The notes beneath the pieces are model-generated. The model was not told the origin of the DNA, made no database searches, and worked only from the letters and a program-made list of their open reading frames with translations. A program made the position numbers and the translations under genes. Below, in pieces: positions 3,290 to 36,775 of a stretch of 50,475 bases of DNA. The stretch comes from Bacillota bacterium (GTDB lineage: Bacteria > Bacillota > Sulfobacillia > JAJZYS01 > JAJYTV01): NCBI GenBank assembly GCA_021793215.1, contig JAJYTE010000018.1, positions 1-50,475 on the forward strand, written 5' to 3'. Numbering within the stretch: position 1 is the stretch's first letter; every line of letters starts with the position of its first letter.

Positions 3290-3317
3290 GGCAGGGTCGA
3301 ACGACCCTGCCTTTTTT
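3290..3317 (+). terminator. Intrinsic terminator
   Basis: GGCAGGGTCG (3290-3299) pairs perfectly with CGACCCTGCC (3302-3311) and is followed by six T residues (3312-3317). It is a textbook plus-strand intrinsic terminator. It lies upstream of the CocE-like gene, so that gene's start must be downstream of it rather than at an in-frame codon near 3082. Confidence 0.85.
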
Positions 3318-3361
3318 GGCCGCCGCGGCAGGGGCCGCGCGCTTGGCCGCGAACAGCAAGA

Positions 3362-3378
3362 CATCAGAATGTCTGACA
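3362..3378. promoter_or_regulatory. Operator copy 1 (CATCAGAATGTCTGACA)
   Basis: A 17-bp element identical to one at 5227-5243 and very similar to one at 9878-9891. Its core TGTCTGACA is a palindrome with a single central base, and TCAGA-ATG-TCTGA forms a second overlapping inverted repeat. The form fits operators of FadR/FCD-type GntR regulators, and such a regulator is encoded at 14778. A weak promoter-like pair, TTGGCC (3343-3348) and CAGAAT (3365-3370), overlaps it. Confidence 0.65.
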
Positions 3379-3456
3379 CGCGGTTCGTCGGACGCACGTC
3401 CGCCGGCCCGTGTCTGCAAGCGCCACTCACGGGGGGACGTCACGTTGGGTGAGGAG

Positions 3457-5193
3457 ATGCGGGAGAAGAGCGTGGTCGCGGACGGAATGCGCATCGACTG
3501 GGATGTTCCGGTGCCGATGGCGGACGGCATCACGCTGCGCGCGGACATCTTCAGGCCCGAGCAGGAGGGGAAGTACCCGGTTCTCCTGACCTACGGCCCG
3601 TACGGCAAGGGACTGCCCTTCCAGGCGGGCTACAAGGACCAGTGGGACGCGATGGTCAGCCAGCACCCCGATATCACGGCGGGCTCGACGAACAAGTACC
3701 AGAACTGGGAGGTCGTCGACCCCGAGAAGTGGGTCCCGGACGGGTACGTCTGCGTGCGCGTCGACTCGCGCGGCGCGGGCCGCTCGCCGGGCCTCATGGA
3801 CTTCTTCTCGCCGCGCGAGACGCAGGACCTCTACGAGTGCATCGAGTGGGCGGCCTCACAGCCCTGGAGCACGGGCAAGGTCGGACTCCTGGGCATCTCG
3901 TACTACGCGATGAACCAGTGGATGGTCGCCTCGAAGCAGCCCCCGCACCTCACGGCGATGTGTCCGTGGGAGGGGGCCGCCGACATGTACCGCGACGCCA
4001 CGCGGCACGGCGGCATCGTCTCCGACTTCTGGGGCAACTGGTTCCGCACCCAGGTCGTCAAGGTGCAGCACGGCTACGGCGAGCGCGGGGAGAAGGACCC
4101 GAACAGCCGGCTGCTCGTCGCGGGCCCCGAGACGCTGAGCGAAGAGGAACTCGCGAAGAACCGCCTCGGGCTTGAGGAGCAGGTGCTCGAGCACCCGCTC
4201 GACGACGACTTCTACCACGACCGCTCGCCGGACTGGTCCAAGGTGAGGGTGCCGTTCCTCTCCGCGGCCAACTGGGGCGGACAGGGCCTGCACCCGCGCG
4301 GCAACGTCGAGGGCTTCGTGCGCGCCGCCTCGCAGGAGAAGTGGCTGGAGGTGCACGGGCTCGAGCACTGGACGCACTTCTACACCGACTACGGGCGCGG
4401 CCTCCAGAAGCGGTTCTTCGACTACTACCTCAAGGGCATCCAGAACGGCTGGGAGAAGCAGCCGCGGGTGCTGCTGCAGGTGCGCCGCGTCGACGGGTTC
4501 GAGGAGCGCCCGGAGACCGACTGGCCGCTCCCGTCGACCGCGTGGACGCGCCTCTACCTGAACGCGGCCGACCGCAGCCTCAGCTTCACGCCGCCCGCGG
4601 CGGAGGGCGAGGTGCGCTATCCCGCGATGGGCGATGGGGTCACCTTCCGGTCGGCGCCGCTCGAGCGCGAGACCGAGATCACGGGGCCAGTGGCGCTCAA
4701 GCTCTTCCTCGCGTCGTCCACCAAGGACGCGGACGTCTTCGCGACGCTGCGGGTCTTCGACCCGGTCGGGAACGAGGTCGACTTCCAGGGCGCGCTCGAC
4801 CCGCACACCCCGATCGGCCAGGGCTGGCTGCGCGCGTCGCACCGCCGGCTCGACCCGGAGCTGACGCGTCCCTACCGCCCGTACCACACGCACGACCGCG
4901 AGGAGCCCCTGACGCCGGGAGCGGTCTACGAGTTGGACGTCGAGATCCTGCCGACCTCGCTCGTGATCCCCAAGGGCTACACGGTCGCGCTCACCTTGCA
5001 GGGCAAGGACTTCGAGCGCGAAGGGGCGGAGGGACACCTCGGCACCGTCGTGAACCCGATGCGCGGGTCGGGGCCGTTCACCCACACGCGCCCGACGGAC
5101 CGGCCGCAGGACGTCTTCGGCGGCGAGCACACCGCGAAGACCGGAGGGGCGTCGGCCTCCTTCCTCCTCCTGCCAGTCATCCCAAGGCGCTAG
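3457..5193 (+). CDS. CocE/NonD family hydrolase (X-Pro dipeptidyl-peptidase-like)
   Basis: A 578-residue enzyme of the CocE/NonD acyl-hydrolase family (peptidase S15 type). The N-terminal alpha/beta-hydrolase domain starts MRIDWDVPVPMADGITLRAD. It carries an S15-like nucleophile motif, GISYYAMNQ (Ser about residue 149), and the catalytic histidine is likely in LEHWTHFY. The C-terminal third is the beta-sandwich PepX_C-type domain (from about TDWPLP to SASFLLLP). It hydrolyses esters or amides. The start is uncertain: ATG 3457 has GGTGA 4 nt upstream, and TTG 3445 with GGGGGGA upstream is the alternative. It has its own operator/promoter region (3343-3378), so it is probably transcribed alone or first in its unit. 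Confidence 0.88.
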   Translation: MREKSVVADGMRIDWDVPVPMADGITLRADIFRPEQEGKYPVLLTYGPYGKGLPFQAGYKDQWDAMVSQHPDITAGSTNKYQNWEVVDPEKWVPDGYVCVRVDSRGAGRSPGLMDFFSPRETQDLYECIEWAASQPWSTGKVGLLGISYYAMNQWMVASKQPPHLTAMCPWEGAADMYRDATRHGGIVSDFWGNWFRTQVVKVQHGYGERGEKDPNSRLLVAGPETLSEEELAKNRLGLEEQVLEHPLDDDFYHDRSPDWSKVRVPFLSAANWGGQGLHPRGNVEGFVRAASQEKWLEVHGLEHWTHFYTDYGRGLQKRFFDYYLKGIQNGWEKQPRVLLQVRRVDGFEERPETDWPLPSTAWTRLYLNAADRSLSFTPPAAEGEVRYPAMGDGVTFRSAPLERETEITGPVALKLFLASSTKDADVFATLRVFDPVGNEVDFQGALDPHTPIGQGWLRASHRRLDPELTRPYRPYHTHDREEPLTPGAVYELDVEILPTSLVIPKGYTVALTLQGKDFEREGAEGHLGTVVNPMRGSGPFTHTRPTDRPQDVFGGEHTAKTGGASASFLLLPVIPRR

Positions 5194-5226
5194 TACCCAG
5201 CGACCAGGTCTCTTCGGACGCACTGC

Positions 5227-5243
5227 CATCAGAATGTCTGACA
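5227..5243. promoter_or_regulatory. Operator copy 2, with a reverse core at 5284-5290
   Basis: Identical over 17 bp to the element at 3362-3378. It lies in the 131-bp gap before the D-2-hydroxyacid dehydrogenase gene. The core is TGTCTGACA at 5235-5243. A second core in the reverse sense, GTCAGAC, occurs at 5284-5290, centred 48 bp downstream, so two regulator dimers could bind one promoter region. Confidence 0.65.
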
Positions 5244-5324
5244 TACGGCAGGGATGCGGAGTCCGCCGAACGAACTCCGCCAAGTCAGACGGCGGGGTCC
5301 ACACCGCTGAAAGGACGTGTCCCA

Positions 5325-6305
5325 TTGGCCACTCGGATCTACGTGACCCAGCCCCTGGCCGACCCCGGTTTCTCACGCATCAAGGCGGCGGGCGACGTGC
5401 GCAGCTACCCCCACAGCGCGCAGATCGCCCCGAAGCAGGACGTGATCGAGGGGGTGCGCGATGCCGAGGTGCTCTGCTGCCTTCTGCAGGACAGCATCGA
5501 CGCCGAGGTGCTCGACGCGGCGAAGAACCTGAAGCTGATCGTCACCGGCGCGGTCCACCCGATGAACCTCGACATCGCCCGCGCGAGCGCCCGCGGGATC
5601 GCCGTCACCGGCATCCCGAACCTCATCGCGGAGGCGACGGCCGACCTCGAGTGGTCGCTGCTGATGTCGCTCTCCCGCCGCATCGTGGAGGCGGACAACG
5701 ACCTGCGCCAGGGCGTCTTCCCGGGCTCGCAGTCGGTGCACTTCGCCGGCGGGCAGGTCTACGGGCGCACGCTCGGCACGATCGGCTTCGGCGCGATCGG
5801 CCAGGGCATCGCGCGCCGGGCGCACGGCTTCGGCATGAAGGTGCTGTACACGAAGCCAACGCGCCTGCCGGAGGCCGAGGAGCAGGAGCTCGGAGTGGAG
5901 TACCGCACCCAAGACGACCTGCTGCGCGAGAGTGACTTCGTCTGCCTGAACGCGACCTTCACGCCCGAGACGCGCCACCTGATCGGGGAGCGCGAGCTTT
6001 CGCTGATGCAGGAGAGCGCCTACCTCATCAACGTCTCCCGCGGCCCGATGGTCGATGAGGCGGCGCTCGTCGCGGCGCTCAAGGCGAAGCGGATCCGAGG
6101 CGTCGCGCTCGACGTGTTCGAGTTCGAGCCGATGGTCGCGCCGGAGCTGCTCGCGTTCAAGAACACCGTGCTCACGCCGCACCTCGGCAGCGCCACGGTG
6201 GAGATGCGGCAGGCGATCTCCGACGTCATGGCGGACAACGTCGAGGCGTTCGTGGCGGGAAAGGAGCTCTCGTACCTCTTGAACGGGCCGCAGATCGGCC
6301 GCTGA
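5325..6305 (+). CDS. D-isomer-specific 2-hydroxyacid dehydrogenase
   Basis: A 326-residue NAD(P)-dependent dehydrogenase of the D-3-phosphoglycerate / hydroxypyruvate reductase family. The Rossmann motif is GFGAIGQG in TLGTIGFGAIGQGIARRA. The catalytic triad is visible as Arg in NVSRGPMVDE, Glu in DVFEFEP and His in LTPHLGS. Start TTG 5325 has AAAGGA 9 nt upstream. It opens a probable operon with the amidohydrolase (17-nt gap), the isochorismatase-like hydrolase and the aldehyde dehydrogenase, under operator copy 2. It likely interconverts a 2-oxoacid and a D-2-hydroxyacid; the exact substrate is not evident. Confidence 0.88.
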   Translation: MATRIYVTQPLADPGFSRIKAAGDVRSYPHSAQIAPKQDVIEGVRDAEVLCCLLQDSIDAEVLDAAKNLKLIVTGAVHPMNLDIARASARGIAVTGIPNLIAEATADLEWSLLMSLSRRIVEADNDLRQGVFPGSQSVHFAGGQVYGRTLGTIGFGAIGQGIARRAHGFGMKVLYTKPTRLPEAEEQELGVEYRTQDDLLRESDFVCLNATFTPETRHLIGERELSLMQESAYLINVSRGPMVDEAALVAALKAKRIRGVALDVFEFEPMVAPELLAFKNTVLTPHLGSATVEMRQAISDVMADNVEAFVAGKELSYLLNGPQIGR

Positions 6306-6321
6306 GGAAGGAGGAACAGAC

Positions 6322-7677
6322 GTGGCAGATCTCTTGATCCGCGGAGGCGTCGTCTGCGACGGTGACGCGCCGCACCAGGCAGACCTCCTGGTCCAGGGCG
6401 GGCGGGTCACCGCAGTCCTCGCACCGGGGACGGCGGACCCGTCCGGCGCCGGCGAGGTCGTCGAGGCCGGCGGCCTCTGGGTGCTGCCGGGGCGGGTGGA
6501 CCCGCACGTCCATATGATGGATCCCGGCCCGACCCACCGCGAGGACTTCCTCACGGGCACGGAAGGCGGGGTGCTGGGCGGCTGCACGACGGTGATCGAC
6601 CACCCGCGCACCGAACCGACGGTACTAAGCGCAGACGTCCTGCGCCAGAAGGCCGCCTACCTCACCGGTCGCTCCTACGCGGACTTCGGCCTGTTCGGCG
6701 GCGGCCAGGAGGACAACATCGGCGGGCTCGAGGGCATGTGGAGGGCGGGCGCGCTCGCCTTCAAGGTCTTCACCTGCAACCTGCACGGCGTGCCGCAGGT
6801 GCGCCCCCAGCAGATGCGCGACCTCTTGCGCACGGTGGCGTCGTTCGGCGGGACGGTCCTCGTGCACGCCGAGGACGAGGAGATCACGAAGGCCAACGAG
6901 CAGCGCCTGCGCGCCGCGGGCCGCAAGGACGGCGGCGTCACGTCAGAGTGGCGCTCGCTCGAGGCGGAGTTCACCGCGGCGCGCGAGGTGCTCGCGGCGG
7001 CCCGGGAGACCGGCTGCCGCGTCGTCCTCGCGCACGCGAGCCACCCGAAGATCGCCGGGCTCGTCGGCGAGGTGCGCGGTCAGGGCTACGACGTGCACTG
7101 CGAGAGCTGCCCGCAGTACTTCTACCTCTCCGAGGAGATCGTGCGGGAGCGCGGGCCCTGGGCGAAGTTCACGCCCCCGGCGCGCGAGGCGGCCGCCCAC
7201 GCCCAGCTCTTCCGCCAGCTCGAGCTCGGGGTGATCGACACGATCACGACCGACCACGCGCCGGCGACGGTCGCGGAGAAGAAGCCCGGCGAGGCGGACA
7301 TCTGGGAGGCGCCGTTCGGCGTCCCGGGCATCCAGACGACGATGCCCCTGATGCTCGAGGCGGTGCGCAGCGGCCAGGTGAGCCTGCCGGCCGTGGTGCG
7401 CGCGATGAGCGTGAACCCGGCGAAGCTCTGGAACATCTACCCGCGCAAGGGGCACCTCGGCGTCGGCGCCGACGCCGACGTCGTGCTCGTCGATCCCGCG
7501 GCCGAGTGGACCATCCGCGGCGCGGACCTCGTGAGCAAGGCCGGCTGGTCGCCGTACGAGGGGCAGAAGATCCACGGCGCGATCGTCTCCACCTACGTGC
7601 GCGGGCAGCTCGTCGCGCACGAGGGGAAGGTCGTGCGCGGGCCGGACACCGGCACCTTCATCACGCGCCCGGAGTGA
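6322..7677 (+). CDS. Hydantoinase/allantoinase-like cyclic amidohydrolase
   Basis: A 451-residue metal-dependent amidohydrolase of the dihydropyrimidinase/allantoinase/dihydroorotase group. DPHVHMMDPGPTHREDF gives the metal-binding HxH (residues 62 and 64). FKVF contains the likely carboxylated bridging lysine (K148). Further ligands are in LVHAEDEE and LAHASHP, and the catalytic aspartate is in TTDHAP. The length matches allantoinases. GTG 6322 is preceded by AAGGAGGA. Such enzymes open cyclic amide rings (hydantoins, dihydropyrimidines, allantoin). With an isochorismatase-like hydrolase and an aldehyde dehydrogenase immediately downstream, ring opening followed by amide hydrolysis and oxidation is a reasonable inference. 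Confidence 0.87.
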   Translation: MADLLIRGGVVCDGDAPHQADLLVQGGRVTAVLAPGTADPSGAGEVVEAGGLWVLPGRVDPHVHMMDPGPTHREDFLTGTEGGVLGGCTTVIDHPRTEPTVLSADVLRQKAAYLTGRSYADFGLFGGGQEDNIGGLEGMWRAGALAFKVFTCNLHGVPQVRPQQMRDLLRTVASFGGTVLVHAEDEEITKANEQRLRAAGRKDGGVTSEWRSLEAEFTAAREVLAAARETGCRVVLAHASHPKIAGLVGEVRGQGYDVHCESCPQYFYLSEEIVRERGPWAKFTPPAREAAAHAQLFRQLELGVIDTITTDHAPATVAEKKPGEADIWEAPFGVPGIQTTMPLMLEAVRSGQVSLPAVVRAMSVNPAKLWNIYPRKGHLGVGADADVVLVDPAAEWTIRGADLVSKAGWSPYEGQKIHGAIVSTYVRGQLVAHEGKVVRGPDTGTFITRPE

Positions 7678-7699
7678 GAGGTCAAGGAGGCTTGAGGCA

Positions 7700-8326
7700 A
7701 TGGACGTAGCGGTCATCGCCATCGACCTGCACCGTGGACACCTCGACCCCGCTGTCGCCACGCTGCCGCTGGAGCCTAGGGCCGCCGCCGCGGTGGTGGG
7801 GAGGGCGGCGGAGTTCTTCGAGGAGTGCCGCAGCCGCGGCATCCCGATCATCCACCTCGTGACCCGCTACCGCGGCCAGGAGGAGATCCTCTCGAACCCG
7901 GCCTGGCTGCGCCGCTCCAAGGACCCGAACTCGACGCGCCAGAACATGGCGCGCCACAACCTCGAGGGCATGCCGGGGATCGAGATCATGCCGGAGCTGT
8001 GGCGCGCGGGGGACGTCCGCGTCGACACGAAGAAGCGCTACGACTGCTTCGTCGGCACGGACCTCGACTTCGTCCTCAAGGGAAGGGGCATCCGGGAGGT
8101 CTGGATGACCGGCGTCAACACCAATAGCTGCGTCCTCGCCACGAGCATCCAGGCGAGCGTGCGCGACTACGACGTCTCGGTCGTCTCGGACTGCGTCGAC
8201 AGCATGGATGGGCGCGAGTTCCACGAGAACGCCCTGCAGATCATGGGACGCGCCTTCACGGAGGTCCACACGAGCCGGGAGCTGCTGGCGGCGTTCGACC
8301 AGCGTCGGGAGACTGTCAAGTCCTAG
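7700..8326 (+). CDS. Isochorismatase-like cysteine hydrolase
   Basis: A 208-residue protein of the isochorismatase-like hydrolase superfamily (nicotinamidase, N-carbamoylsarcosine amidase, ureidoacrylate amidohydrolase, biuret hydrolase). The catalytic triad is visible: Asp9 in AIDLHRGH, Lys in DTKKRYDCF and Cys144 in GVNTNSCV. It should cleave an amide or carbamoyl group. AGGAGG lies about 10 nt before ATG 7700. It follows the cyclic amidohydrolase by 22 nt, so it plausibly acts on the ring-opened product. The exact substrate is not determinable. Confidence 0.87.
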   Translation: MDVAVIAIDLHRGHLDPAVATLPLEPRAAAAVVGRAAEFFEECRSRGIPIIHLVTRYRGQEEILSNPAWLRRSKDPNSTRQNMARHNLEGMPGIEIMPELWRAGDVRVDTKKRYDCFVGTDLDFVLKGRGIREVWMTGVNTNSCVLATSIQASVRDYDVSVVSDCVDSMDGREFHENALQIMGRAFTEVHTSRELLAAFDQRRETVKS

Positions 8327-8339
8327 GGAGGGTTCAAGG

Positions 8340-9830
8340 ATGTCCCTGCCGCACTACGACCACTTCATCGACGGAGAGTTCGTTCCCGCCTCCGACGGCG
8401 CGTACTTCGACCTGATCGACCCCGCGACGGCTGAGGTCTCGGCCAAGGTCGCGGCCGGCACGGCGGAGGATATCGACCGCGCGATCCGGGCGGGCGAGCG
8501 GGCGCAGAAGGAGGGCGACTGGGCGCGCGAGGCGCGCGTGCGGGTGCCGGTGCTGCGTCGGTTCGCGTCGGCGCTGCGCGACGCGGTGCCCCGGCTCGCG
8601 GAGAAGGAGTCCGCGACCACCGGGCGGCCCGTGCGCGAGATGAAGGCGCAGCTCGGGCGCCTCGCGGACTGGTACGACTACTTCGCGAGCGTCGCCGAGA
8701 CGATCGAGGGCGGGGTGCTGCCGTTCGGCCCCGGCTACCTCGACTACACCCTGCGCGAACCGCTCGGAGTCGTCGCGCTGCTGACGCCGTGGAACCACCC
8801 CCTCCTGATCCTGACGAAGAAGCTCTCCGCGGCGCTCGCGGCGGGCAACTCGATCGTGATCAAGCCCTCGGAGCTCGCGCCGATCACAATCAACGACCTC
8901 GCGCAGCTCCTGCGCGACGCCGGCGTTCCGAAGGGCATCGTGAACGTCGTGCACGGCCTTGGACGGGTCACCGGGAAGGCGCTCGCAGAGGACCCCAGGG
9001 TTGCCAAGGTCGACCTTACAGGGGGTACCCCCACCGGCAAGGCGGTCGCCGCGGCGGCGGGGCAGAACCTCGCGCGGGTCACGGCCGAGCTCGGCGGCAA
9101 GGGGACGGTGATCGTCTTCCCGGACGCCGACGAGGATGAGGCGGTGAACGGGGCGGTCTTCGCGAGCTTCATCGCGACCGGGCAGACTTGCGTGCAGGGC
9201 GCGCGGGTGCTTGTCCACGAGAGCCGCTACGAGGCGTTCCTCGAGCGCCTGGCGGACAAGGTCTCCCGGTTGCGGCTGGGTCCCCCGTCGGATGTCTCGA
9301 CCGACATCGGCCCGATGGTCTCCGAAGGCCAGCGCGGCCGCGTGCTCGACTACGTCCGGATCGGCGTCGAAGAGGGCGCGCGGCTCGTGCACGGCGGCGT
9401 CGTGCCCGAGGGAGCGAAGGGCTGGTACGTCGTCCCGGCCGTGTTCGGCGGCGTGCGCCCAGAGATGCGCATCGCCCGCGAGGAGATCTTCGGGCCGCTC
9501 GTCGTGGTGATGCCCTACCGCGACGAGGAGGACGCGATCCGCATCGCCAACGACACGGAGTTCGGCCTCGCGATGTCGGTCTGGACGCGTGACGTGCTGC
9601 GGGCGCACCGGGTCGCGGCGCGGCTCGAGTGCGGCATCGTCTGGGTGAACGACCACCACCGCATCGACCCGGCCTCGCCGTGGGGCGGCTACAAGCAGAG
9701 CGGCATCGGCTCGGAGAACGGGGTGGACGCCTACCGGGGCTACACCCGCCTCAAGACGGTGATCGTGCGCACCCAGGAGACGAAGTTCGACTGGTTCGAC
9801 GGCAGCGATGAGGTGAAGCGGTACAGTTGA
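8340..9830 (+). CDS. NAD(P)-dependent aldehyde dehydrogenase
   Basis: A 496-residue aldehyde dehydrogenase superfamily enzyme. The general base Glu250 is in TAELGGKG and the catalytic Cys284 in GQTCVQGARV. The oxidoreductase tail motif EEIFGPLVVVMPY and PWGGYKQSGIG are present. Start ATG 8340 follows GGGAGGG by 7 nt and lies 13 nt after the previous stop. It resembles enzymes acting on semialdehydes from ring-cleavage or amine catabolism, but the family is too broad to name the substrate. It ends the unit that begins at 5325; the next unit has its own operator (9878-9891). Confidence 0.9.
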   Translation: MSLPHYDHFIDGEFVPASDGAYFDLIDPATAEVSAKVAAGTAEDIDRAIRAGERAQKEGDWAREARVRVPVLRRFASALRDAVPRLAEKESATTGRPVREMKAQLGRLADWYDYFASVAETIEGGVLPFGPGYLDYTLREPLGVVALLTPWNHPLLILTKKLSAALAAGNSIVIKPSELAPITINDLAQLLRDAGVPKGIVNVVHGLGRVTGKALAEDPRVAKVDLTGGTPTGKAVAAAAGQNLARVTAELGGKGTVIVFPDADEDEAVNGAVFASFIATGQTCVQGARVLVHESRYEAFLERLADKVSRLRLGPPSDVSTDIGPMVSEGQRGRVLDYVRIGVEEGARLVHGGVVPEGAKGWYVVPAVFGGVRPEMRIAREEIFGPLVVVMPYRDEEDAIRIANDTEFGLAMSVWTRDVLRAHRVAARLECGIVWVNDHHRIDPASPWGGYKQSGIGSENGVDAYRGYTRLKTVIVRTQETKFDWFDGSDEVKRYS

Positions 9831-9877
9831 CCGCTTGAGACAGGAATTGAACTTGCCTCGTGGAACCTCTTCATGAA

Positions 9878-9891
9878 CAGATTGTCTGACA
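9878..9891. promoter_or_regulatory. Operator copy 3 (CAGATTGTCTGACA)
   Basis: Differs from copies 1 and 2 by one base over 14 bp (CAGATT instead of CAGAAT) and keeps the TGTCTGACA palindrome (9883-9891). It lies about 110 bp upstream of livH in a 168-bp gap. TTGCCT at 9853-9858 is a possible -35. The CAGAAT/CAGATT part may double as the -10 at all three sites, which would suit repression by steric block. Confidence 0.6.
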
Positions 9892-9998
9892 GTCTTCACT
9901 CCCGCACGTCCGATGGCTGGGCGCAGGCCCAACCAGGGGAGGGGGCGCGCCGGGCGATCCGCTAACCTCCTGATTTTGCGGATAGGGAAGGTGGGCAA

Positions 9999-10859
9999 AT
10001 GGCCTTCTTCGTCCAGAACGCCCTGGGCGGTCTGGCGTACGGCGGCCTCCTGTTCATGGTCGCCGCCGGCTTCACCCTGATCTTCGGACTCATGCGGGTC
10101 GTGAACCTTGCCCAGACGTCGTTCTACCTGATCGGCGCCTACGTAGGTCTCGCGCTGCTGGGGGATCACGTGAACTTCTGGATCGCCGCCGTGGGCGCCG
10201 GCCTCGTCGTGCTGGTGATCGGCGTCGTGACCTACGGGGGTCTCTTGCACCGCTTCCACACGAAGGATCTGACGACGCTGCTGATCACGCTCGGCGTCTC
10301 CTTGATCCTCGACGACGCGGCGCTCGCGATCTGGGGCGGGGACCCGCTCTCCGTGCCGTCCCCCGCGCACCTCACCTCGTCGATGACCATCGGCGGCGCG
10401 GTGTTCCCGGTCTACTGGCTCGCGCTCTTCGGGGTGGCCGTGCTCGTGGGGCTGGCGCTCTGGTTCTTCCAGCAGCGCACGCGCTTCGGGGCCATCGTCC
10501 GCGCCGGCGTCGACGACGAGGAGATGGTCCGCGGGCTCGGGGTGGACGTCAACCGGGCGTTCTACGTGGTGTTCGCGATCGGCGCCTTCCTCGCCGGCGC
10601 GGGCGGCCTGCTGGGCGGCCCGATCACCGGCGTCGCGCCGGGACTCGACGGAGACCTCCTGGCCCTCGCCTTCGCCGTCGTCATCGTCGGCGGCATGGGC
10701 AGCCTCTCCGGGGCCTTCATCGGCAGCATGCTGATCGGCCTCGTCGACACGTTCGGCCAGGCGCTCTTCCCGCAGCTCGCCTACTTCACGATCTTCGCCC
10801 CCGTGGCGCTGATCGTCGCCCTCCGGCCGCAGGGTCTCCTGGGCCGGAAGGAGATCTGA
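9999..10859 (+). CDS. livH: Branched-chain-type ABC transporter permease (LivH family)
   Basis: A 286-residue inner-membrane permease with about eight hydrophobic helices. Family motifs are ALGGLAYGGLLFMVAAGFTLIFGLMRVVNLAQTSFY near the N-terminus and FAVVIVGGMGSLSGAFIGSMLIGLVDTFG near the C-terminus. It pairs with the LivM gene one base downstream. ATG 9999 is preceded by GGGAAGGTGGG. LivH-family systems import branched-chain amino acids but also urea, amides and aromatic acids. Given the catabolic neighbours, the cargo is more likely the pathway substrate than leucine. Confidence 0.93.
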   Translation: MAFFVQNALGGLAYGGLLFMVAAGFTLIFGLMRVVNLAQTSFYLIGAYVGLALLGDHVNFWIAAVGAGLVVLVIGVVTYGGLLHRFHTKDLTTLLITLGVSLILDDAALAIWGGDPLSVPSPAHLTSSMTIGGAVFPVYWLALFGVAVLVGLALWFFQQRTRFGAIVRAGVDDEEMVRGLGVDVNRAFYVVFAIGAFLAGAGGLLGGPITGVAPGLDGDLLALAFAVVIVGGMGSLSGAFIGSMLIGLVDTFGQALFPQLAYFTIFAPVALIVALRPQGLLGRKEI

Positions 10860-10860
10860 C

Positions 10861-11880
10861 GTGCGCTGGCGTGCGGTCCTCCCCTGGCTCTTCGCGGTGA
10901 TCGGCGTCCTCCTGCTCGTACTGCCCCTGATCGGGACCCCGGAGTACGTGGTGACGCTCGCGACGCTGATGCTGATCTACGGCATCGCCGCGATGGCGCT
11001 CGACATCCTCGTGGGCTTCACCGGACTCGTCTCCTTCGCCCAGGGCGCGTTCTTCGGCGTCGCGGCCTACGGCGTCGGCGTGGCCACCACCGAGATGGGG
11101 ATCACGAACTTCTTCGCCGTCTCCGGCTTCTCGGTGATGCTCGCGGTCGGCCTCTCGGTCATCGTCGGCTTGATCGCGCTGCGCGCGAAGGGCGTCGGCT
11201 TCATCATCCTCACGCTCGCGATCAACGAGCTGATGTGGGGCCTCGCCTACCAGTGGGTCGCGGTGAGCGGCGGCGACAACGGACTGATCGGCTTCGTGCG
11301 GCCGGAGCTGTTCGGGATCAGCCTGAGCGGCACCGATTCCTTCTACTGGTTCTCGTTCGGCGTGCTCGCGATCACGGGTGCCCTCATGTACCTCGTGGTG
11401 CGATCGCCCTTCGGCCTGGCGCTCAAGGGCATCCGCGAGCAGCCGCGGCGGATGAAGGCGCTCGGCTACAACGTCTGGGTCTACCAGTACATGGCGTTCA
11501 TCGTCGCCGCGTTCTTCGCCGGCATCGCCGGCGTGCTGATCGCCTACTACAACGAGTTCGTCGGCACCTCCATCCTCAACCTCGCCCAGTCGACCCAGTT
11601 CCTGATCATGACGATCCTCGGCGGCACCGGCACCTTGTGGGGCTCCCTGCTCGGGTCGGGCATCATCGTCGCCCTCCAGAACGTGATCAGCAACTACACC
11701 ATGCGCTGGGAGATGATCCTCGGCGCCATCTACGTGGCGGTGGTCATGTGGGCGCCCGAAGGCATCCTGGGTGTCGCGCAGCGGCTGCTGACGCGCCGCC
11801 GCAGGGGGCGGACCGCAGCAAAGGGGGTGGTTGAGGTTCGTCCGGGCGACGAGGGGACCCCTCAGGAAGGTAAGGGATGA
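10861..11880 (+). CDS. livM: Branched-chain-type ABC transporter permease (LivM family)
   Basis: A 339-residue membrane permease with the LivM marks MALDILVGFTGLVSFAQGAFFGVAAY and LIMTILGGTGTLWGSLLGSGIIVALQ, and a cytoplasmic loop SPFGLALKGIREQPRRMKALGY that contacts the ATPase. GTG 10861 starts one base after the livH stop, with GGAAGGAG in the end of livH, so translation is probably coupled. The C-terminal tail is basic and hydrophilic. It forms the membrane channel with LivH. Confidence 0.93.
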   Translation: MRWRAVLPWLFAVIGVLLLVLPLIGTPEYVVTLATLMLIYGIAAMALDILVGFTGLVSFAQGAFFGVAAYGVGVATTEMGITNFFAVSGFSVMLAVGLSVIVGLIALRAKGVGFIILTLAINELMWGLAYQWVAVSGGDNGLIGFVRPELFGISLSGTDSFYWFSFGVLAITGALMYLVVRSPFGLALKGIREQPRRMKALGYNVWVYQYMAFIVAAFFAGIAGVLIAYYNEFVGTSILNLAQSTQFLIMTILGGTGTLWGSLLGSGIIVALQNVISNYTMRWEMILGAIYVAVVMWAPEGILGVAQRLLTRRRRGRTAAKGVVEVRPGDEGTPQEGKG

Positions 11881-11971
11881 CCCCGGCGCGCTGCGGAACG
11901 TCGGTCGAGCGTCCGCTCTCACCCACTTGGTGGTTCCTTCGCATCCGTCAGAGGAAAGAAGGTCAGTGCCA

Positions 11972-13234
11972 ATGAAGTGGAACCTTCGCAAACCTGTGAT
12001 GCTCGCCATGGCGGCCTCGATGGCCCTTGTCGCCGCAGGCTGCGGTTCGAGCCCTGCGACCACAACGTCGAAGAGTCAGGCGCCGATCAAGATCGGCTTC
12101 CTGTACCCCGAGACCGGCGTGTTCGCCGCACCGGGCAAGTACATGGCGAATGGACTTACGCTCTTCCTGCAGCAGCACCACTACAAACTCGCCGGCCGCA
12201 AGATCGAGGTGATCACGGCCGACACCCAGGGCAACCCCCAGGTAGCGATCACGCAGGCCAAGAAGCTCGTCGAGCAGGACCACGTGAACCTCTTGTTCGG
12301 CCCCCTCTCGGCCGCGGTGGGCAGCGCCTTGCAGCCGTACATCGACAGCCAGGGGATCCCGACGATCTACCCGATCGTCTCTTCTGACGACCTGACGCAG
12401 CGCCTGCCAAGCCAGTACATCGTCCGCACGGGCTGGACCTCCAGCCAGACGACGCAGCCGCTCGGCGACTACGCCTATAAGCAGCTCGGCTACCGCAAGG
12501 TGGTCACGGTCGGGTACGACTTCAGCTTCGGCTGGCAGAGCGTCAGCGGGTTCGTCTCCGCGTTCCAGAACGAGGGCGGCAAGGTCGCCCAGGAGATCTG
12601 GACCCCGCTGACGACGCAGAACTACGCGCCGTACCTCTCGCAGATCCCGAAGTCCGGGATCGACGCGGTGATGATCAGCTACTCCGGCTCCGCCGCGATC
12701 AGCTTCATCCAGCAGTACAAGCAGTTCGGGCTGAAGTACCCCATCATCGCGCAGGGCAACGCGACCGACGAGAGCACGCTCGGCGCGACCGGGCCTGACG
12801 CTGTCGGGATCATCTCGGCGCTGCACTACAGCGGCGCGCTCACGACCCCGAACGCAGTCGCCTTTGAGAAGGCCTACGAGAAGAAGTTCGGCGCGGTGCC
12901 GTCCTACTACTCCGAAGGCACCTACGTCGGCGGCATGTTCCTGCTGGCCGGCCTCGAGAAGCTCCACGGCAACATCAGCAACACGCAGGCGTTCGTCAAG
13001 GCGATGAAGACCGCCTCGATCCCGAACGCCCCGCGCGGGCCGATCACCATGGACAAATACGGCAACCCGATCGAGAACGTGTACATCCGCAAGGTAGAGA
13101 TGGTCAACGGCCAACTCGAGAACGTCGTGATCTACACCTACCCGAAGGTGTCGCAGTTCTGGACCGAGTCGCCGAGCACGTTCCTCGCGCACCCGGTGTT
13201 CTCGAACACCTACCCGAAGCCGACCGGCCCCTGA
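11972..13234 (+). CDS. Branched-chain-type ABC transporter substrate-binding lipoprotein
   Basis: A 420-residue extracytoplasmic binding protein (Peripla_BP_6/LivK type). The N-terminus is a lipoprotein signal: basic MKWNLRK, a hydrophobic stretch, then lipobox AAGC with Cys24 as the lipidated residue. A Ser/Thr-rich linker and the mature domain IKIGFLYPETGVFAAPGKYMANG follow. ATG 11972 is chosen so that the signal peptide begins correctly and because AGAAGG lies 9 nt upstream. A lipid anchor suits a Gram-positive binding protein. It is the specificity component of the transporter made by livH, livM, livG and livF. Confidence 0.92.
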   Translation: MKWNLRKPVMLAMAASMALVAAGCGSSPATTTSKSQAPIKIGFLYPETGVFAAPGKYMANGLTLFLQQHHYKLAGRKIEVITADTQGNPQVAITQAKKLVEQDHVNLLFGPLSAAVGSALQPYIDSQGIPTIYPIVSSDDLTQRLPSQYIVRTGWTSSQTTQPLGDYAYKQLGYRKVVTVGYDFSFGWQSVSGFVSAFQNEGGKVAQEIWTPLTTQNYAPYLSQIPKSGIDAVMISYSGSAAISFIQQYKQFGLKYPIIAQGNATDESTLGATGPDAVGIISALHYSGALTTPNAVAFEKAYEKKFGAVPSYYSEGTYVGGMFLLAGLEKLHGNISNTQAFVKAMKTASIPNAPRGPITMDKYGNPIENVYIRKVEMVNGQLENVVIYTYPKVSQFWTESPSTFLAHPVFSNTYPKPTGP

Positions 13235-13319
13235 TCGATCGGCCGACCCGGGAGGCGGACGCTGGACGGCACCTCGGCGCCGCCCAGCGGAGCGCCCGCA
13301 AGAGCCCCGCTGGACGCGG

Positions 13320-13331
13320 AAGTCTGACCCA
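13320..13331. promoter_or_regulatory. Weak partial operator match
   Basis: AAGTCTGACCCA at 13320-13331 keeps the GTCTGAC core of the three stronger operator copies but loses the symmetrical outer bases. It lies about 25 bp before the M24 peptidase start. It could be a low-affinity site or chance. Confidence 0.25.
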
Positions 13332-13355: not shown

Positions 13356-14612
13356 ATGGACTTGAGCTTCATTGGGCGGCCGCACGAGTACCTGCCGCGC
13401 CGGATCTACAGCACCACTGCCACCGACTGGCAGCAGCGGGTCGACTTCGACCGCATGCGCCGTGAGCGCCTCGCCCGCGCGAAGGCGAAGATGGCGGAGC
13501 ACAACCTCGGCGCGATGGTGCTCTTCGTCGGTGAGAACGTTCGGTACGTCACCGGCGTGTGGCAGGGCAACTGGAAGAACAACATCTTCATCCGCTACGC
13601 GGTGCTGCCGCGCGACGGCGAGCCGATCCTCTTCGAGACGGTCGGTTCCGACCTGGAGACGGCGAAGATCGATGCCCCGTGGATGGAGGGCCGCATCCGC
13701 CCGGCCATGACCTGGAAGTGGGCGGAGAGCGCCGAGGACTTCATGGTGAACAAGATGGTCCAGAGCGTCGTCGACGTGCTGAAGGAGCATGGCGTCGAGA
13801 AGGAGCCCTTGGGCATCGACATCATGGACATCCGCGCCTACGAGGGCTTCCGCAACGCGGGGGTCAATGTCGTCAACGCGTGGCCGGCCATGTCGGGCGC
13901 CCGCGTGGTCAAGACGCAGGATGAGATCGAGAGCCACAAGATCGCGACCGCCTACGGCGACGCGGCGATGTGGCGGATCAAGAACGAGTGGCTGAAGCCG
14001 GGCGTCCGCGAGTCGCACATCACGGCGAAGGTCAATGAGTTCTTCTATGAGGAAGGCTTCGACTTCGTCTACGACATCATCGTGGCGTCGGGCGGCAACA
14101 CGAGCCCGTACCGCCGCTGGCACACCGACAAGCTGGTGCGCCAGGGCGACCTCGTGATCGTCGACATCAACGCCATCGGACCAGGCGGCTACTTCGTCGA
14201 CTACGTCCGCTGCTTCAAGGTCGACGCGAAGCCGACCCAGAAGGAGAAGGACCTCTACAAGGAGTGCTACGACTCGCTGTACGCATCGCTCGAACAGCTC
14301 CAGCCCGGCAACACGACAGCCGACGTCGCCAAGCGTTTCCCGGTCTACGACGACGACAAGTACGGAAGCGTCAGCCTGCAGCAGTTCGCGCACTCGATCG
14401 GCCTCTCGCTCTACGAGGGCATGTGGATCTCGCGCGCGTACTCGCTCGACTACCCTGTTGAGCTGCAACCGAACATGTGCTTCGCGATCGAGACGTTCGC
14501 CGGTCACCCGCAGCTCGAGCAGACGGTGCGTCTCGAGGAGGACGTCGTGATCACCGACAAGGGCCCCATGATCATGACCATGATGCCCTTCGAGGAGGAC
14601 TTTCTGAAGTAG
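13356..14612 (+). CDS. M24 family metallopeptidase (Xaa-Pro peptidase/creatinase fold)
   Basis: A 418-residue pita-bread-fold protein. The N-terminal creatinase-like domain (1 to about 180) precedes the M24 catalytic domain. All five metal ligands can be traced: Asp in IVDINA, Asp in GYFVDYVR, His in QFAHSIGLS, Glu in FAIETFAG and Glu in VRLEEDVVI. It is therefore probably an active dinuclear metallohydrolase acting on a C-N bond (Xaa-Pro peptide, creatine or similar). ATG 13356 has AAGGAG 10 nt upstream. It is not closely similar to the DoeA-type M24 protein at 49811. Its place inside the transporter cluster suggests that it processes the imported compound. Confidence 0.88.
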   Translation: MDLSFIGRPHEYLPRRIYSTTATDWQQRVDFDRMRRERLARAKAKMAEHNLGAMVLFVGENVRYVTGVWQGNWKNNIFIRYAVLPRDGEPILFETVGSDLETAKIDAPWMEGRIRPAMTWKWAESAEDFMVNKMVQSVVDVLKEHGVEKEPLGIDIMDIRAYEGFRNAGVNVVNAWPAMSGARVVKTQDEIESHKIATAYGDAAMWRIKNEWLKPGVRESHITAKVNEFFYEEGFDFVYDIIVASGGNTSPYRRWHTDKLVRQGDLVIVDINAIGPGGYFVDYVRCFKVDAKPTQKEKDLYKECYDSLYASLEQLQPGNTTADVAKRFPVYDDDKYGSVSLQQFAHSIGLSLYEGMWISRAYSLDYPVELQPNMCFAIETFAGHPQLEQTVRLEEDVVITDKGPMIMTMMPFEEDFLK

Positions 14613-15538: not shown

Positions 15539-16312
15539 TTGGCGCAAGCCAGAGAGTCCACACCCGAGATCTGTCTCGATCTGCAGAGCGTCAGCCACCG
15601 CTTCGGATCCCTGAAGGTCATCGAGGACATCAGCCTAAAGGTGCCCAAGGGGCAGCGTAGGGCGATCATCGGGCCGAACGGGGCCGGCAAGACGACACTC
15701 TTCAACATCATCGCCGGGGAGATCCGCCCGACGGCCGGCACGGTCCTGTTCGAGGGCCGAGACGTGACCCCGCTCCCGGTCCACCGCCACGCGGCGATCG
15801 GGATCTCGCGCACCTTCCAGACCACGTCGCTGTTCCCGAAGCTCTCCGTGCTGGAGAACGTCGGACTCGCGCTGCAGGCGTTCCAGCGCGGCAGCATGCA
15901 GATGCTGCGGCCGCGCTCGCGCTACCGGCGGTGGGACGACGAGGCCGAAGCCCTGCTCGACCTGGCGGGCCTTTCGGATCGCGCGCACGAGCCGCTCTCC
16001 GGACTCTCCTACGGCGAGCAGCGCCAGGTGGAGATCCTGCTCGCGCTGGCGCAGAAACCGCGGCTCCTGCTGCTCGACGAGCCGACGGCCGGACTCTCGC
16101 GCGGAGACCTGAAGGCGGTCGCCGAGCCCCTGAAGGCGCTCAGCCGGGATGTGACCATGGTGCTGATCGAGCACGACATGGACGTCGTCTTCGACCTCGT
16201 CGACCGCATCGCCGTACTGCACAACGGCGGCATCGTCGCCGACGGCACCGTCGAGGAGATCCGCAAGAACGAGGTTGTGCAGGAGATCTACCTCGGAGGA
16301 ACCCACCGATGA
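15539..16312 (+). CDS. livG: Branched-chain-type ABC transporter ATP-binding protein (LivG)
   Basis: A 257-residue ABC ATPase. Walker A is GPNGAGKTTL, the signature is LSYGEQRQVEI, Walker B is LLLLDEPTAGLS and the switch histidine is in LIEHDMDVVFDLVDRIAVLHNG. ISRTFQTTSLFPKLSVLENV is typical of LivG. Start TTG 15539 has AAGGGGG 8 nt upstream. The stop overlaps the livF start (ATGA), so the two are translationally coupled. It is separated from livH-livM-livK by the M24 and GntR genes. Confidence 0.93.
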   Translation: MAQARESTPEICLDLQSVSHRFGSLKVIEDISLKVPKGQRRAIIGPNGAGKTTLFNIIAGEIRPTAGTVLFEGRDVTPLPVHRHAAIGISRTFQTTSLFPKLSVLENVGLALQAFQRGSMQMLRPRSRYRRWDDEAEALLDLAGLSDRAHEPLSGLSYGEQRQVEILLALAQKPRLLLLDEPTAGLSRGDLKAVAEPLKALSRDVTMVLIEHDMDVVFDLVDRIAVLHNGGIVADGTVEEIRKNEVVQEIYLGGTHR

Positions 16313-17010
16313 AGGCGCTCGAAGCGACTGGGATTCACACCTACTACGGCGAGAGCCACGTGCTGCAGGGCGTCGACCTGGGCGTCGAGGAGGGCGCGGT
16401 GACGTCGCTGCTCGGCCGCAACGGCGTCGGGAAGACGACCCTCATCCGCACGATCGTCGGCTTCACGCGGGCGCGCTCCGGCACGGTGATGTTCGGGAGC
16501 ACCGCGATCCAGCGCATGGCCTCCCACCGCATCGCGCGGCTCGGCATCGGGCTCGTGCCGCAGGGGCGGCGCATCTTCCGCTCCCTCACGGTGGAGGAGC
16601 AGCTCCTGCTGCCGGCGAGCTGGCGGGCGAAGGGGGAGTGGGACCTCGACCGGGTCTACCAGCTCTTCCCGCGGCTGAAGGAGCGGCGCCAGCACCTCGG
16701 CAGCCAGCTCTCCGGCGGCGAGCAATCGATGCTGGCGGTCGGGCGCGCGCTGATGACGAACCCGCGCCTGCTCGTCATGGATGAACCGTCCGAGGGGCTC
16801 GCGCCGGTGATCATCCAGGAGCTCGAGCGCACGTTCAAGTCCCTGATCAAGACCGGGCTCACGATCCTGCTCGTCGAGCAGAACTTCGGGCTCGCGATGG
16901 CGCTCGCCGATACCGTCTACGTGATGAGCAAGGGCCAGATCGTGTACACGGGCACCGCCCAGGACCTCTCGGAGTCCCACGAACTGCGCCACCAGTACCT
17001 CGGGATCTAG
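16309..17010 (+). CDS. livF: Branched-chain-type ABC transporter ATP-binding protein (LivF)
   Basis: A 233-residue ABC ATPase with Walker A GRNGVGKTTL, the LivF-typical LGIGLVPQGRRIFRSLTVEEQL, signature LSGGEQSMLAVGRAL and Walker B LLVMDEPSEGLAP. ATG 16309 overlaps the livG stop by 4 nt, with CGGAGGA upstream. It pairs with LivG under the LivH/LivM channel. Confidence 0.93.
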   Translation: MKALEATGIHTYYGESHVLQGVDLGVEEGAVTSLLGRNGVGKTTLIRTIVGFTRARSGTVMFGSTAIQRMASHRIARLGIGLVPQGRRIFRSLTVEEQLLLPASWRAKGEWDLDRVYQLFPRLKERRQHLGSQLSGGEQSMLAVGRALMTNPRLLVMDEPSEGLAPVIIQELERTFKSLIKTGLTILLVEQNFGLAMALADTVYVMSKGQIVYTGTAQDLSESHELRHQYLGI

Positions 17011-26960: not shown

Positions 26961-26993
26961 CATTTCCGAAGTTCGCTGCAGGAGGCGATGGCG

Positions 26994-27536
26994 ATGGAGT
27001 TCACCCTCGGGATCCTGGTCGACAACGAGGCCGGCGTCCTTGCACGTGTCGCGAGCCTCTTTAGTCGGCGCGGCTACAACATCCAGAGCCTCGCCGTCGG
27101 GCCGACCGATGACCCCGGTACCTCGTGGATCACGCTGCGGGCGGAGGGTGAGGACGCGGTGCGCGTCCAGATGCAGCGCCAGCTCGGAAAGCTCGTCGAG
27201 GTGGTCGGGGTCTACCACATGACCGAGGGCATCTCCGTCGAGCGCGAGCTCGCGCTGATCAAGGTCAGTACGGGCGACCGACGCGCAGAGGTGATGCAGA
27301 TCGCCCAGACCTTCCGCGCCGCGGTGATCGACGTGAGTCCCAGTTCCGTCGTGCTCGAGACCACAGGCGATCGCGGCAAGGTGAACGCCCTGATCGAGGT
27401 CATGCACGAGTTCGGCGTGCTCGAGGTCGCGCGCACCGGCGCCGTCGCGATGCTTCGCGGACCGGGCGTCTTCCGGGAAGACGTGGAGGACGGCCGTGCC
27501 CCGCCGGACGACCTGCGCAAGACCGAGACCCGCTAA
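26994..27536 (+). CDS. ilvN: Acetolactate synthase small (regulatory) subunit
   Basis: A 180-residue regulatory subunit. An N-terminal ACT domain (FTLGILVDNEAGVLARVASLFSRRGYNIQSLAVG) binds valine, and a second ferredoxin-like domain (RAEVMQIAQTFRAAVIDVSPSSVVLETTG) completes the IlvN/IlvH architecture. AGGAGG ends 2 nt before the ATG at 26988 and 8 nt before the ATG at 26994, so the second is preferred. It is the first gene behind the T-box leader, while its catalytic partner ilvB is seventh in the operon. Confidence 0.93.
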   Translation: MEFTLGILVDNEAGVLARVASLFSRRGYNIQSLAVGPTDDPGTSWITLRAEGEDAVRVQMQRQLGKLVEVVGVYHMTEGISVERELALIKVSTGDRRAEVMQIAQTFRAAVIDVSPSSVVLETTGDRGKVNALIEVMHEFGVLEVARTGAVAMLRGPGVFREDVEDGRAPPDDLRKTETR

Positions 27537-27554
27537 CTGAAGGAGGACGAAGAG

Positions 27555-28592
<1,038 letters not shown>

Positions 28593-28620
28593 CGTTCGAT
28601 TCGGCAGAGGAGGGTGAGCG

Positions 28621-30177
28621 ATGCGACGCATCCGGATCTTCGACACGACGCTGCGCGACGGGGAGCAGTCCCCCGGCGTCAACCTCATGGGTATCGAGAA
28701 GATCGAGATCGCGCGGCAGCTGGAGCGCCTTGGCGTCGACATCATCGAGGCGGGCTTCCCGATCACCTCAGAGGGCGACATGGAAGCCGTCCAGGCGATC
28801 TCGCGCGAGGTGCGAGGGCCCGTGATCGCGGCGCTCGCCCGCACCCACCAGGCCGACATCGAGGCAGCGGCGAAGGCGCTCGAGCAGGCGAAGAGCCCAC
28901 GCATCCACGTCTTCACGTCGTTCTCGCCGGTGCACCTCCAGTACATGCTGCGCAAGAGCGAGGACGAGGTGATCGCGATGAGCGTCGCCTCGATCGAGGC
29001 GGCGCGCCGCTACGTCGACGACGTGGAGTTCTCCGGCCAGGACGCGATGCGCTCGGACCCCGCCTTCGTCTTCCGCGCGATCGCCGCGGCGATCGCGGCG
29101 GGCGCCACGACGATCAACATCCCGGACACGGTGGGCTACACGGCGCCCGAGGAGTTCGCAGCCCTGATCCGCGGCGTGCGCGAACAGGTGCCGGGCGCCA
29201 AGGACGTGCACATCTCGGTCCACTGCCACAACGACCTCGGCCTCGCCGTCGCGAACACGCTCGCGGGGCTCGCGGCAGGCGCCGACCAGGCCGAGGTGGC
29301 GGTCAACGGGATCGGCGAGCGCGCCGGCAACACGTCGCTCGAGGAGGTCGCGATGGCGCTCGCGACGCGCGAGGACTTCTTCCAGATGGACACGGGCATC
29401 GACGCGCGGGAGATCGGGCGCACAAGCCGGCTCGTCAGCCGCCTCACGGGCATGCAGGTCCAGCCGAACAAGGCGATCGTCGGCGCGAACGCCTTCGCCC
29501 ACGAGGCGGGCATTCACCAGGACGGCGTGATCAAGGAGCGCACCACCTACGAGATCATGAACCCGCAGGACATCGGCCAGGGCGAAACGCAGCTCGTGAT
29601 GGGCAAGCACTCGGGGCGTCACGCCTTCCAGATGAAGCTCGCGGCGCTGGGCTATAGCCTTGCGGAGACGGAGCAGCGCGAGCTCTTTCGGCGCTTCAAG
29701 GCGCTGACGGACAAGAAGAAGCAGGTCACCGACCGCGACATCCAGTCGCTCGTGGAGGACGAGATCTACCGCTTCGACGACGCCTACGAGCTCGTCGACT
29801 ACCAGGTCTCGAGCGCTGGCGGAGCACCCTCGACCGCCACCGTCGGCGTCTGCACGCAGGGCGGAGCGGCTGGCGCGGTGACGCGCGAGGCGGCGGTCGG
29901 CCTGGGCCCGATCGAGGCGCTCTACCTCGCGCTGCAGCGCGCGACCGGCCTGCAGGCCGACCTCAAGGACTACGCGATCCAGTCGGTCGGGGGCGGGTCG
30001 GACGCGCAGGGCGAGGTGCGCTGCAGCATCGACTACTTCGGCCAGACGTTCGTCGGCTTCGGCGTTTCGACGGACATCCTCGAGGCGAGCGCGCTCGCCT
30101 ACCTGCACGCGCTCAACAAGGCGGCCGCCGTACGCGCGCAGGCGGAGCAGCACCCCACCGGAAAGGAGGCGATCTGA
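28621..30177 (+). CDS. leuA: 2-Isopropylmalate synthase
   Basis: A 518-residue full-length LeuA. The catalytic barrel has DTTLRDGEQSPGV, HCHNDLGLAVAN and NGIGERAGNTSLEEV. The C-terminal LeuA allosteric domain (about 390-510, with VGVCTQGGAAG and SVGGGSDAQGEV) is present, so leucine feedback is expected. It condenses acetyl-CoA with 2-oxoisovalerate. Its TGA is followed immediately by the leuC start. Confidence 0.96.
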   Translation: MRRIRIFDTTLRDGEQSPGVNLMGIEKIEIARQLERLGVDIIEAGFPITSEGDMEAVQAISREVRGPVIAALARTHQADIEAAAKALEQAKSPRIHVFTSFSPVHLQYMLRKSEDEVIAMSVASIEAARRYVDDVEFSGQDAMRSDPAFVFRAIAAAIAAGATTINIPDTVGYTAPEEFAALIRGVREQVPGAKDVHISVHCHNDLGLAVANTLAGLAAGADQAEVAVNGIGERAGNTSLEEVAMALATREDFFQMDTGIDAREIGRTSRLVSRLTGMQVQPNKAIVGANAFAHEAGIHQDGVIKERTTYEIMNPQDIGQGETQLVMGKHSGRHAFQMKLAALGYSLAETEQRELFRRFKALTDKKKQVTDRDIQSLVEDEIYRFDDAYELVDYQVSSAGGAPSTATVGVCTQGGAAGAVTREAAVGLGPIEALYLALQRATGLQADLKDYAIQSVGGGSDAQGEVRCSIDYFGQTFVGFGVSTDILEASALAYLHALNKAAAVRAQAEQHPTGKEAI

Positions 30178-31458: not shown

Positions 31459-31958
31459 TGCCGAGGGCCTGGAAGTACGGTGACAACGTCGACACCGACG
31501 TGATCATTCCCGCCCGCTACCTCGTCACGGGTGACCCCGAGAAGCTCGGACCGCATTGCCTGGAGAACCTCGACCCCGAGTTCGTCGCCAGAAAGCAGCC
31601 AGGCGACGTGATCGTCGGCGGGCGCAACTTCGGCTGCGGCAGCTCGCGCGAGCACGCGCCGATCGCGATCAAGGGGGCGGGCGTGCCCTGCGTGATCGCC
31701 GAGTCCTTCGCCCGCATCTTCTTCCGCAACGCGATCAACATCGGACTTCGGGTCTACGAGTCGCCGACTGCGGCGCAAGGGATCCAGATGGGCGACGAGG
31801 TCGAGGTCGATGAGGCGCAGGCCGCGATCTTCAACCGCACGCGCGGCGAACGCTACGAGATCATTCCGCTCTCGCCCTTCGTGCAGGAGATCGTGGCGGC
31901 TGGCGGCCTGATGGCGAAGCTGCGGCGCGAACTGCAGGCAGGGGGGGCGTCGTCGTGA
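31458..31958 (+). CDS. leuD: 3-Isopropylmalate dehydratase small subunit
   Basis: A 166-residue small subunit of the short LeuD type. It begins RAWKYGDNVDTDVIIPARYL and contains the substrate-binding loop GGRNFGCGSSREHAP and FARIFFRNAINIGL. ATG 31458 overlaps the leuC stop by one base; GAGGAGG is 7 nt upstream. Confidence 0.95.
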   Translation: MPRAWKYGDNVDTDVIIPARYLVTGDPEKLGPHCLENLDPEFVARKQPGDVIVGGRNFGCGSSREHAPIAIKGAGVPCVIAESFARIFFRNAINIGLRVYESPTAAQGIQMGDEVEVDEAQAAIFNRTRGERYEIIPLSPFVQEIVAAGGLMAKLRRELQAGGASS

Positions 31959-33103: not shown

Positions 33104-33119
33104 GAGGAGGCGGACGGTG

Positions 33120-34859: not shown

Positions 34860-34862
34860 GAA

Positions 34863-36663: not shown

Positions 36664-36775
36664 ACATCGATGCTGGTGCGCGACCCTAAGCACCAGATCG
36701 TGAGGATGCGGCACCTCCAACGCTGGCGCCGCCCACGACCCTTGGTCAGCGGGGCGCACGGTGGGAGGAGTTTCA

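Follow-up and report, generated by a model that had tools for sequence, protein, structure and literature searches.

A repeated palindromic word as the predicted operator of an FCD-type GntR regulator with a putative four-unit regulon

Genes and operator-like words at the locus

The window, i.e. the entire stretch of 50,475 nucleotides analysed here from a Bacillota bacterium of the class Sulfobacillia, carries three units of genes (Table 1). Unit 1 is a CocE/NonD family hydrolase. Unit 2 starts with a 2-hydroxyacid dehydrogenase and continues with an amidohydrolase, an amidase and an aldehyde dehydrogenase; judged by the nearest relatives with solved structures, its chemistry would be hydantoinase- and biuret-hydrolase-like. 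Unit 3 starts with livH, and its two permeases, the binding protein and the LivG and LivF ATPases constitute one transporter. The M24 gene probably belongs to the unit 3 transcript. In the run livH-livM-binding protein-M24-gntR-livG-livF a terminator-like site was not found on the gene strand. A text search of the literature for this gene combination returned nothing useful.

Table 1. Features of the predicted regulon within the window.
Feature	Position	Strand	Basis
Terminator-like hairpin (T run) marking the left regulon border	3290..3311	+	terminator scan; synteny starts at 3327
Operator 1, CATCAGAATGTCTGACA (predicted)	3362..3378	+	core TGTCTGACA at 3370-3378; half-box TCAG at 3364-3367
CocE/NonD family hydrolase (Peptidase_S15 + PepX_C), unit 1	3445..5193	+	domain search; TTG start inferred
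Operator 2, CATCAGAATGTCTGACA (predicted)	5227..5243	+	motif match; core intact in sister species
D-2-hydroxyacid dehydrogenase, first gene of unit 2	5325..6305	+	domain search
Hydantoinase/allantoinase-type amidohydrolase, unit 2	6322..7677	+	best solved relative 1gkr, L-hydantoinase
Isochorismatase-family amidase, unit 2	7700..8326	+	domain search
Aldehyde dehydrogenase, unit 2	8340..9830	+	domain search; start inferred
Operator 3, CAGATTGTCTGACA (predicted)	9878..9891	+	motif match; sister species CAGATTGTCAGACAATC
livH-type permease, first gene of unit 3	9999..10859	+	domain search
livM-type permease, unit 3	10861..11880	+	domain search
LivK/UrtA-like substrate-binding protein, unit 3	11954..13234	+	domain search; start inferred
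M24 (creatinase/prolidase superfamily) protein	13356..14612	+	domain search; class comparison
FCD-type GntR regulator, proposed binder of operators 1-3 and of the site on contig C63	14778..15497	+	domain search, homologue enrichment, species pattern
LivG- and LivF-type ATPases	15539..17010	+	domain search

The M24 protein is distantly prolidase-, DddP- or DoeA-like and reached no NCBIfam cut-off. In the sister species its identity amounts to 98%, compared with 79-92% for its neighbours, and in class relatives, where it stands beside an FCD gntR gene, to 71-77%. It appears to be under unusually strong constraint.

Further downstream, at 26988-36527, lies a near-complete cluster for branched-chain amino acid synthesis (ilvN, ilvC, leuA, aconitase-type, leuB-type, TPP enzyme, ilvD), in which no operator was found. 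The open reading frame at 36761-37753 corresponds to the start of an ectoine hydrolase (DoeA/EutD) for ~75 residues and thereafter to an EutB dehydratase from about residue 68 onward. Exact 17-mers from its two parts recur at places that begin at 49928 and 41214; it looks like a fusion by recombination or deletion, or an assembly join.

The original prediction, made from the window alone, had described a 17-bp word that recurs identically, a 14-bp near-copy, and the position of all three in gaps before the CocE-like gene, the dehydrogenase-amidohydrolase operon and livH. All of this was confirmed. The word CATCAGAATGTCTGACA occupies the gaps before units 1 and 2 with the same 17 bases, and CAGATTGTCTGACA, with one mismatch over 14 positions, the gap before livH. 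The centres are located 71 bp upstream of the proposed CocE start, 86 bp upstream of the dehydrogenase start and 112 bp upstream of livH, respectively. An additional half-box, TCAG, is placed at a distance of about 8.5 nt from the centre. In the gap immediately upstream of gntR there is no site. A weaker core at 13322-13328 had also been proposed. It was rejected: it is the bare core GTCTGAC without the TGT/ACA arms, one of the six GTCWGAC matches within the window, and is absent from the sister species. For GTCAGAC at 5284, likewise, the sister species has no copy, and this candidate was dropped.

Rarity in the genome and conservation in the genus

Taken by itself the 17-bp identity is weak evidence because at least one repeated 17-mer occurred in 72% of windows simulated with a Markov-2 model of the window's composition (mean 1.6). 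Similarly, the number of one-mismatch versions of TGTCTGACA in the window was within that of shuffled sequences. These two results speak for a chance repeat in a GC-rich window. Only at the scale of the genome do the sites exceed chance. With up to two mismatches, ATCAGAATGTCTGACA matched only the three window sites in the 2.74-Mb genome. TGTCWGACA occurred six times, three times in the window gaps, once on another contig (C63) and twice apparently by coincidence; that three of six random sites fall inside 6.5 kb had a simulated P of about 0.0003. CAGNWTGTCWGACA has four copies here, three in the sister species and at most two in any other of 154 class genomes; as the search words were picked after the sites were known, all of these genome-scale figures are descriptive. 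The scan of the genome, which had been suggested originally, did not turn up many copies in unrelated coding regions, in that just two of the six look coincidental.

Independent tests are conservation and the enrichment at homologues described below. The sister species of the same genus (G002) has about 85% DNA identity in this region, and synteny begins at 3327. Sites 1 to 4, site 4 being the one on C63, are identical at 13, 11, 13 and 13 of 14 positions, while the remaining sequence of their gaps has 67%, 62%, 60% and 55% identity, respectively. At site 1, which reads TCAGAATGTCAGACA in the sister species, this amounts to 13/14 as against 68/101 in the remaining gap. The sole change at sites 1 and 3 is T to A at the centre base; site 3 reads CAGATTGTCAGACAATC. 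Such a pattern would be expected for a symmetric dimer that recognises the arms irrespective of the centre base. At site 2 the core TGTCTGACA is unchanged and the left half-box is altered or lost. Genome-wide rarity, position in gaps, conservation and homologue enrichment all oppose chance, and the conservation of all four sites refutes it in practice; we give it next to no credence. Taken together, the comparative evidence settles, as far as sequence can, that the sites are real.

Could the conserved word belong to a regulator from a different family, or to a promoter? Sites 1-3 do overlap a conserved stretch, CAGAAT or CAGATT, upstream of the genes, and CAGAAT might be taken for a poor -10 box. 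At site 2 of the sister species, however, it is precisely this left part that is gone and TGTCTGACA that is kept, and CAGAAT was rejected as a -10 box. Nor was a sigma-70-like promoter pair recognised at the sites. Furthermore, the core matches FCD-type sites which have been footprinted or mutated (PMC8206213, PMC9145765). We regard this explanation as very improbable, though less so than chance, and retain that of an FCD-type operator.

The fourth site, TGTCWGACA at C63:29759-29767, is centred 78 bp before a gene for a branched-chain-type substrate-binding protein. In the sister species it is retained and precedes a binding-protein gene that is 86% identical. The locus (L060:3842-5125) encodes a LivK-like binding protein with a predicted operator of its own, and transporter genes were not seen alongside. 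Perhaps it serves as a second binding protein, with the same ligand or a different one. The site is a good one, and the gene was added as a predicted fourth unit which was invisible from the window.

Other genomic copies were rejected. The C43:801 copy shares bases with the start codon of nusG and occurs also in a genome of the genus without the regulator (G003); probably it is retained through coding constraint. For the copy at C39:34113 a conserved match was not seen. Extensions with one mismatch on C21 and C72, and on C3 and C151 of the sister species, are scattered and all crossed by long open frames, and the places on C72 and C151 have no mutual similarity. Therefore, no further members were added. 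At the nusG locus (L059:800-1351) the overlap of the start codon with TGTCTGACATGA is coincidental and can mislead motif searches within the genus.

The regulator at 14778 and its homologues

The product of the gene at 14778 has a GntR domain (PF00392, 4e-18) and an FCD domain (PF07729, 2.8e-19), both above cut-off. The GT-N3-AC palindrome core of FCD operators (FadR subfamily) is present as TGTCWGACA at four own and four sister-species sites. The outer positions of TNGTNNNACNA are both present at sister sites 3 and 4; own sites have one half or neither. According to a comparative-genomics survey, an Arg reads the G of the GT half-site (PMC4494728). In the 14778 product this Arg, at position 28 ahead of the recognition helix, is R41 in LPTERELCE and is invariant in the alignment.

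Within the genus, G001 and G003 have no close GntR homologue (best about 30%), no M24 gene and no site cluster, a species pattern that is drawn from four genomes, one of them 82% complete. Across these species the promoter-gap sites are conserved together with the regulator.

The genome encodes six FCD proteins, and the operators might be real and yet be bound by another one, e.g. that on contig C52, with the 14778 product merely a neighbour. Like the 14778 product, and as the only other of the six, the C52 protein is found in the sister species (84%) and missing from the other two genomes; moreover, a site is missing from the gap of the gntR gene itself. The C52 protein, however, is without the Arg before the recognition helix (ETE instead of ERE). 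The FCD proteins on C36 and C40 do have the Arg but occur in species without the sites. Only the 14778 product both fits the species pattern and has the recognition Arg, and among its homologues the core adjoins their own genes. Binding by another FCD protein is thus unlikely, albeit the most serious of the alternatives, and the 14778 product is the preferred binder.

For the homologues, 128 palindromic 7-mers were tested in upstream regions of 250 bp at 80 homologous gntR genes drawn from many phyla. One of them, GTCWGAC, was present upstream of 17 of the 80 genes compared with 1.04 expected (P 4e-16; next-best palindrome P 7e-4); this P value should be taken as indicative, because the homologues are partly interdependent. 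A perfect TTGTCWGACAA is located 32-75 bp upstream of gntR in four homologues (L086, L087, L088 and L159), and one further homologue has TTGTCTGACAT at 123 bp. In L084, L087 and L088 a CAG box is located at the same spacing as here. GTCWGAC is supported as a common core for this branch of FCD regulators.

The distant homologues adjoin genes for URO-D/pterin-type enzymes, BenE and HpaB/UbiD. An attempt to deduce the inducer from them was abandoned as the neighbour genes point to no common ligand. In two Acidobacteria (L084:3114-5137 and L087:8244-9960) a homologous gntR with TTGTCTGACA lies beside a URO-D family protein and a protein of ~215 amino acids without a Pfam match; this is a candidate for a separate regulon.

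Closer to home, class relatives L051, L052, L067 and L068 have clusters of GntR, hydroxyacid dehydrogenase, HMGL-like and M24 genes with the same regulator group and M24 proteins which are 71-76% identical. These contigs yielded neither CocE nor hydantoinase genes, and L068 had no HMGL match. The site of the class relatives, GGTCAGACA, differs in form from that here. It is situated immediately downstream of gntR in L052, L053 and L068, and in L052 and L068 it precedes a hydroxyacid dehydrogenase operon with an M24 gene; the GntR proteins of relatives with this site are 37-40% identical. A sample of the phylum yielded no additional close GntR relatives.

How does the predicted operator compare with characterised ones? 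AnsR of Corynebacterium glutamicum, a FadR-subfamily regulator, binds ACCTGTCTGACAGCT, in which mutation of the centre T is without effect; it senses L-asparagine and controls asparaginase, aspartase and a permease (PMC9145765). The palindromic nine-base core TGTCTGACA is the same, the centre base is unimportant in both, and catabolic and uptake genes are the targets there and the predicted targets here. The AnsR site likewise only partly matches TNGTNNNACNA. It differs by being downstream of the transcript start, and neither asparaginase nor aspartase is among the unit genes according to Pfam and NCBIfam. LhgR of Pseudomonas putida W619, also of the GntR family, has the sites TTGTCTGACAA and TAGTCTGACAA, the former protected in a DNase I footprint; it controls lhgO, senses L-2-hydroxyglutarate and binds its own promoter as well (PMC8206213). 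The core is shared; lhgO was not identified among the neighbouring genes searched. The FadR-subfamily survey reports motifs of TKGT/ACMA groups and extra weaker half-boxes 7-12 nt from the centre (PMC4494728), which agrees with the GT-N3-AC palindrome, the Arg-G contact and the half-box at about 8.5 nt. Neither the present orthologous group nor its targets appeared in the sections of the survey consulted.

The putative regulon and its biological role

We propose, with a probability of about 0.78, that the FCD-type GntR regulator encoded at 14778 recognises the repeated word as its operator and would govern four units. Conservation of the sites, their rarity in the genome, co-occurrence with gntR in the genus, enrichment at homologues and the poor fit of the other FCD proteins argue for this reading; from them we infer the binding. 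The assignment of the symmetric word to the 14778 product, already part of the original prediction, is supported. Its extent was revised: three of the four named sites are conserved, that at 13322 was discarded and the C63 unit was added.

A dimer of the protein would bind TGTC-W-GACA as a palindrome, which a weaker additional half-site (CAG) often accompanies at fixed spacing. The regulated units would be the CocE-like hydrolase, the dehydrogenase-amidohydrolase-amidase-aldehyde dehydrogenase operon, the genes from livHM via binding protein, M24 and gntR to livGF, and the orphan LivK-like gene on C63. Because a sigma-70-like promoter was not recognised, the position of the sites does not distinguish repression from activation. 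Most likely the regulator represses the four units, relief of repression by a carboxylate ligand being a usual mode of FCD proteins (established knowledge; PMC4494728). A small carboxylate, derived from the imported compound or its pathway, would bind to the FCD domain and release the repressor, whereupon genes for uptake and breakdown would be switched on together. We infer repression, co-transcription and the class of inducer, and a single inducer for all units would follow in the same manner. As gntR is within unit 3 and no terminator-like site intervenes, the promoter at operator 3 probably drives its transcription, and it would adjust its own level by feedback.

More tentatively, the regulon may mark an undescribed catabolic route under a single FCD ligand. 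Its core, possibly kept across the class, would comprise gntR, 2-hydroxyacid dehydrogenase, an HMGL-like condensing enzyme or lyase and the M24 protein. Here it might have been widened by the hydantoinase, the amidase, the CocE-type esterase, a dedicated ABC importer and the second, remote binding protein. We consider this proposal as a whole somewhat less probable than even.

This type of switch protein and its site are already well known, and as regulation biology the regulon is ordinary. Its use is in naming genes. About a dozen genes of unclear role, one of them on another contig, are tied to one predicted regulator; this narrows the search for a common substrate and supplies a DNA site for a ligand screen.
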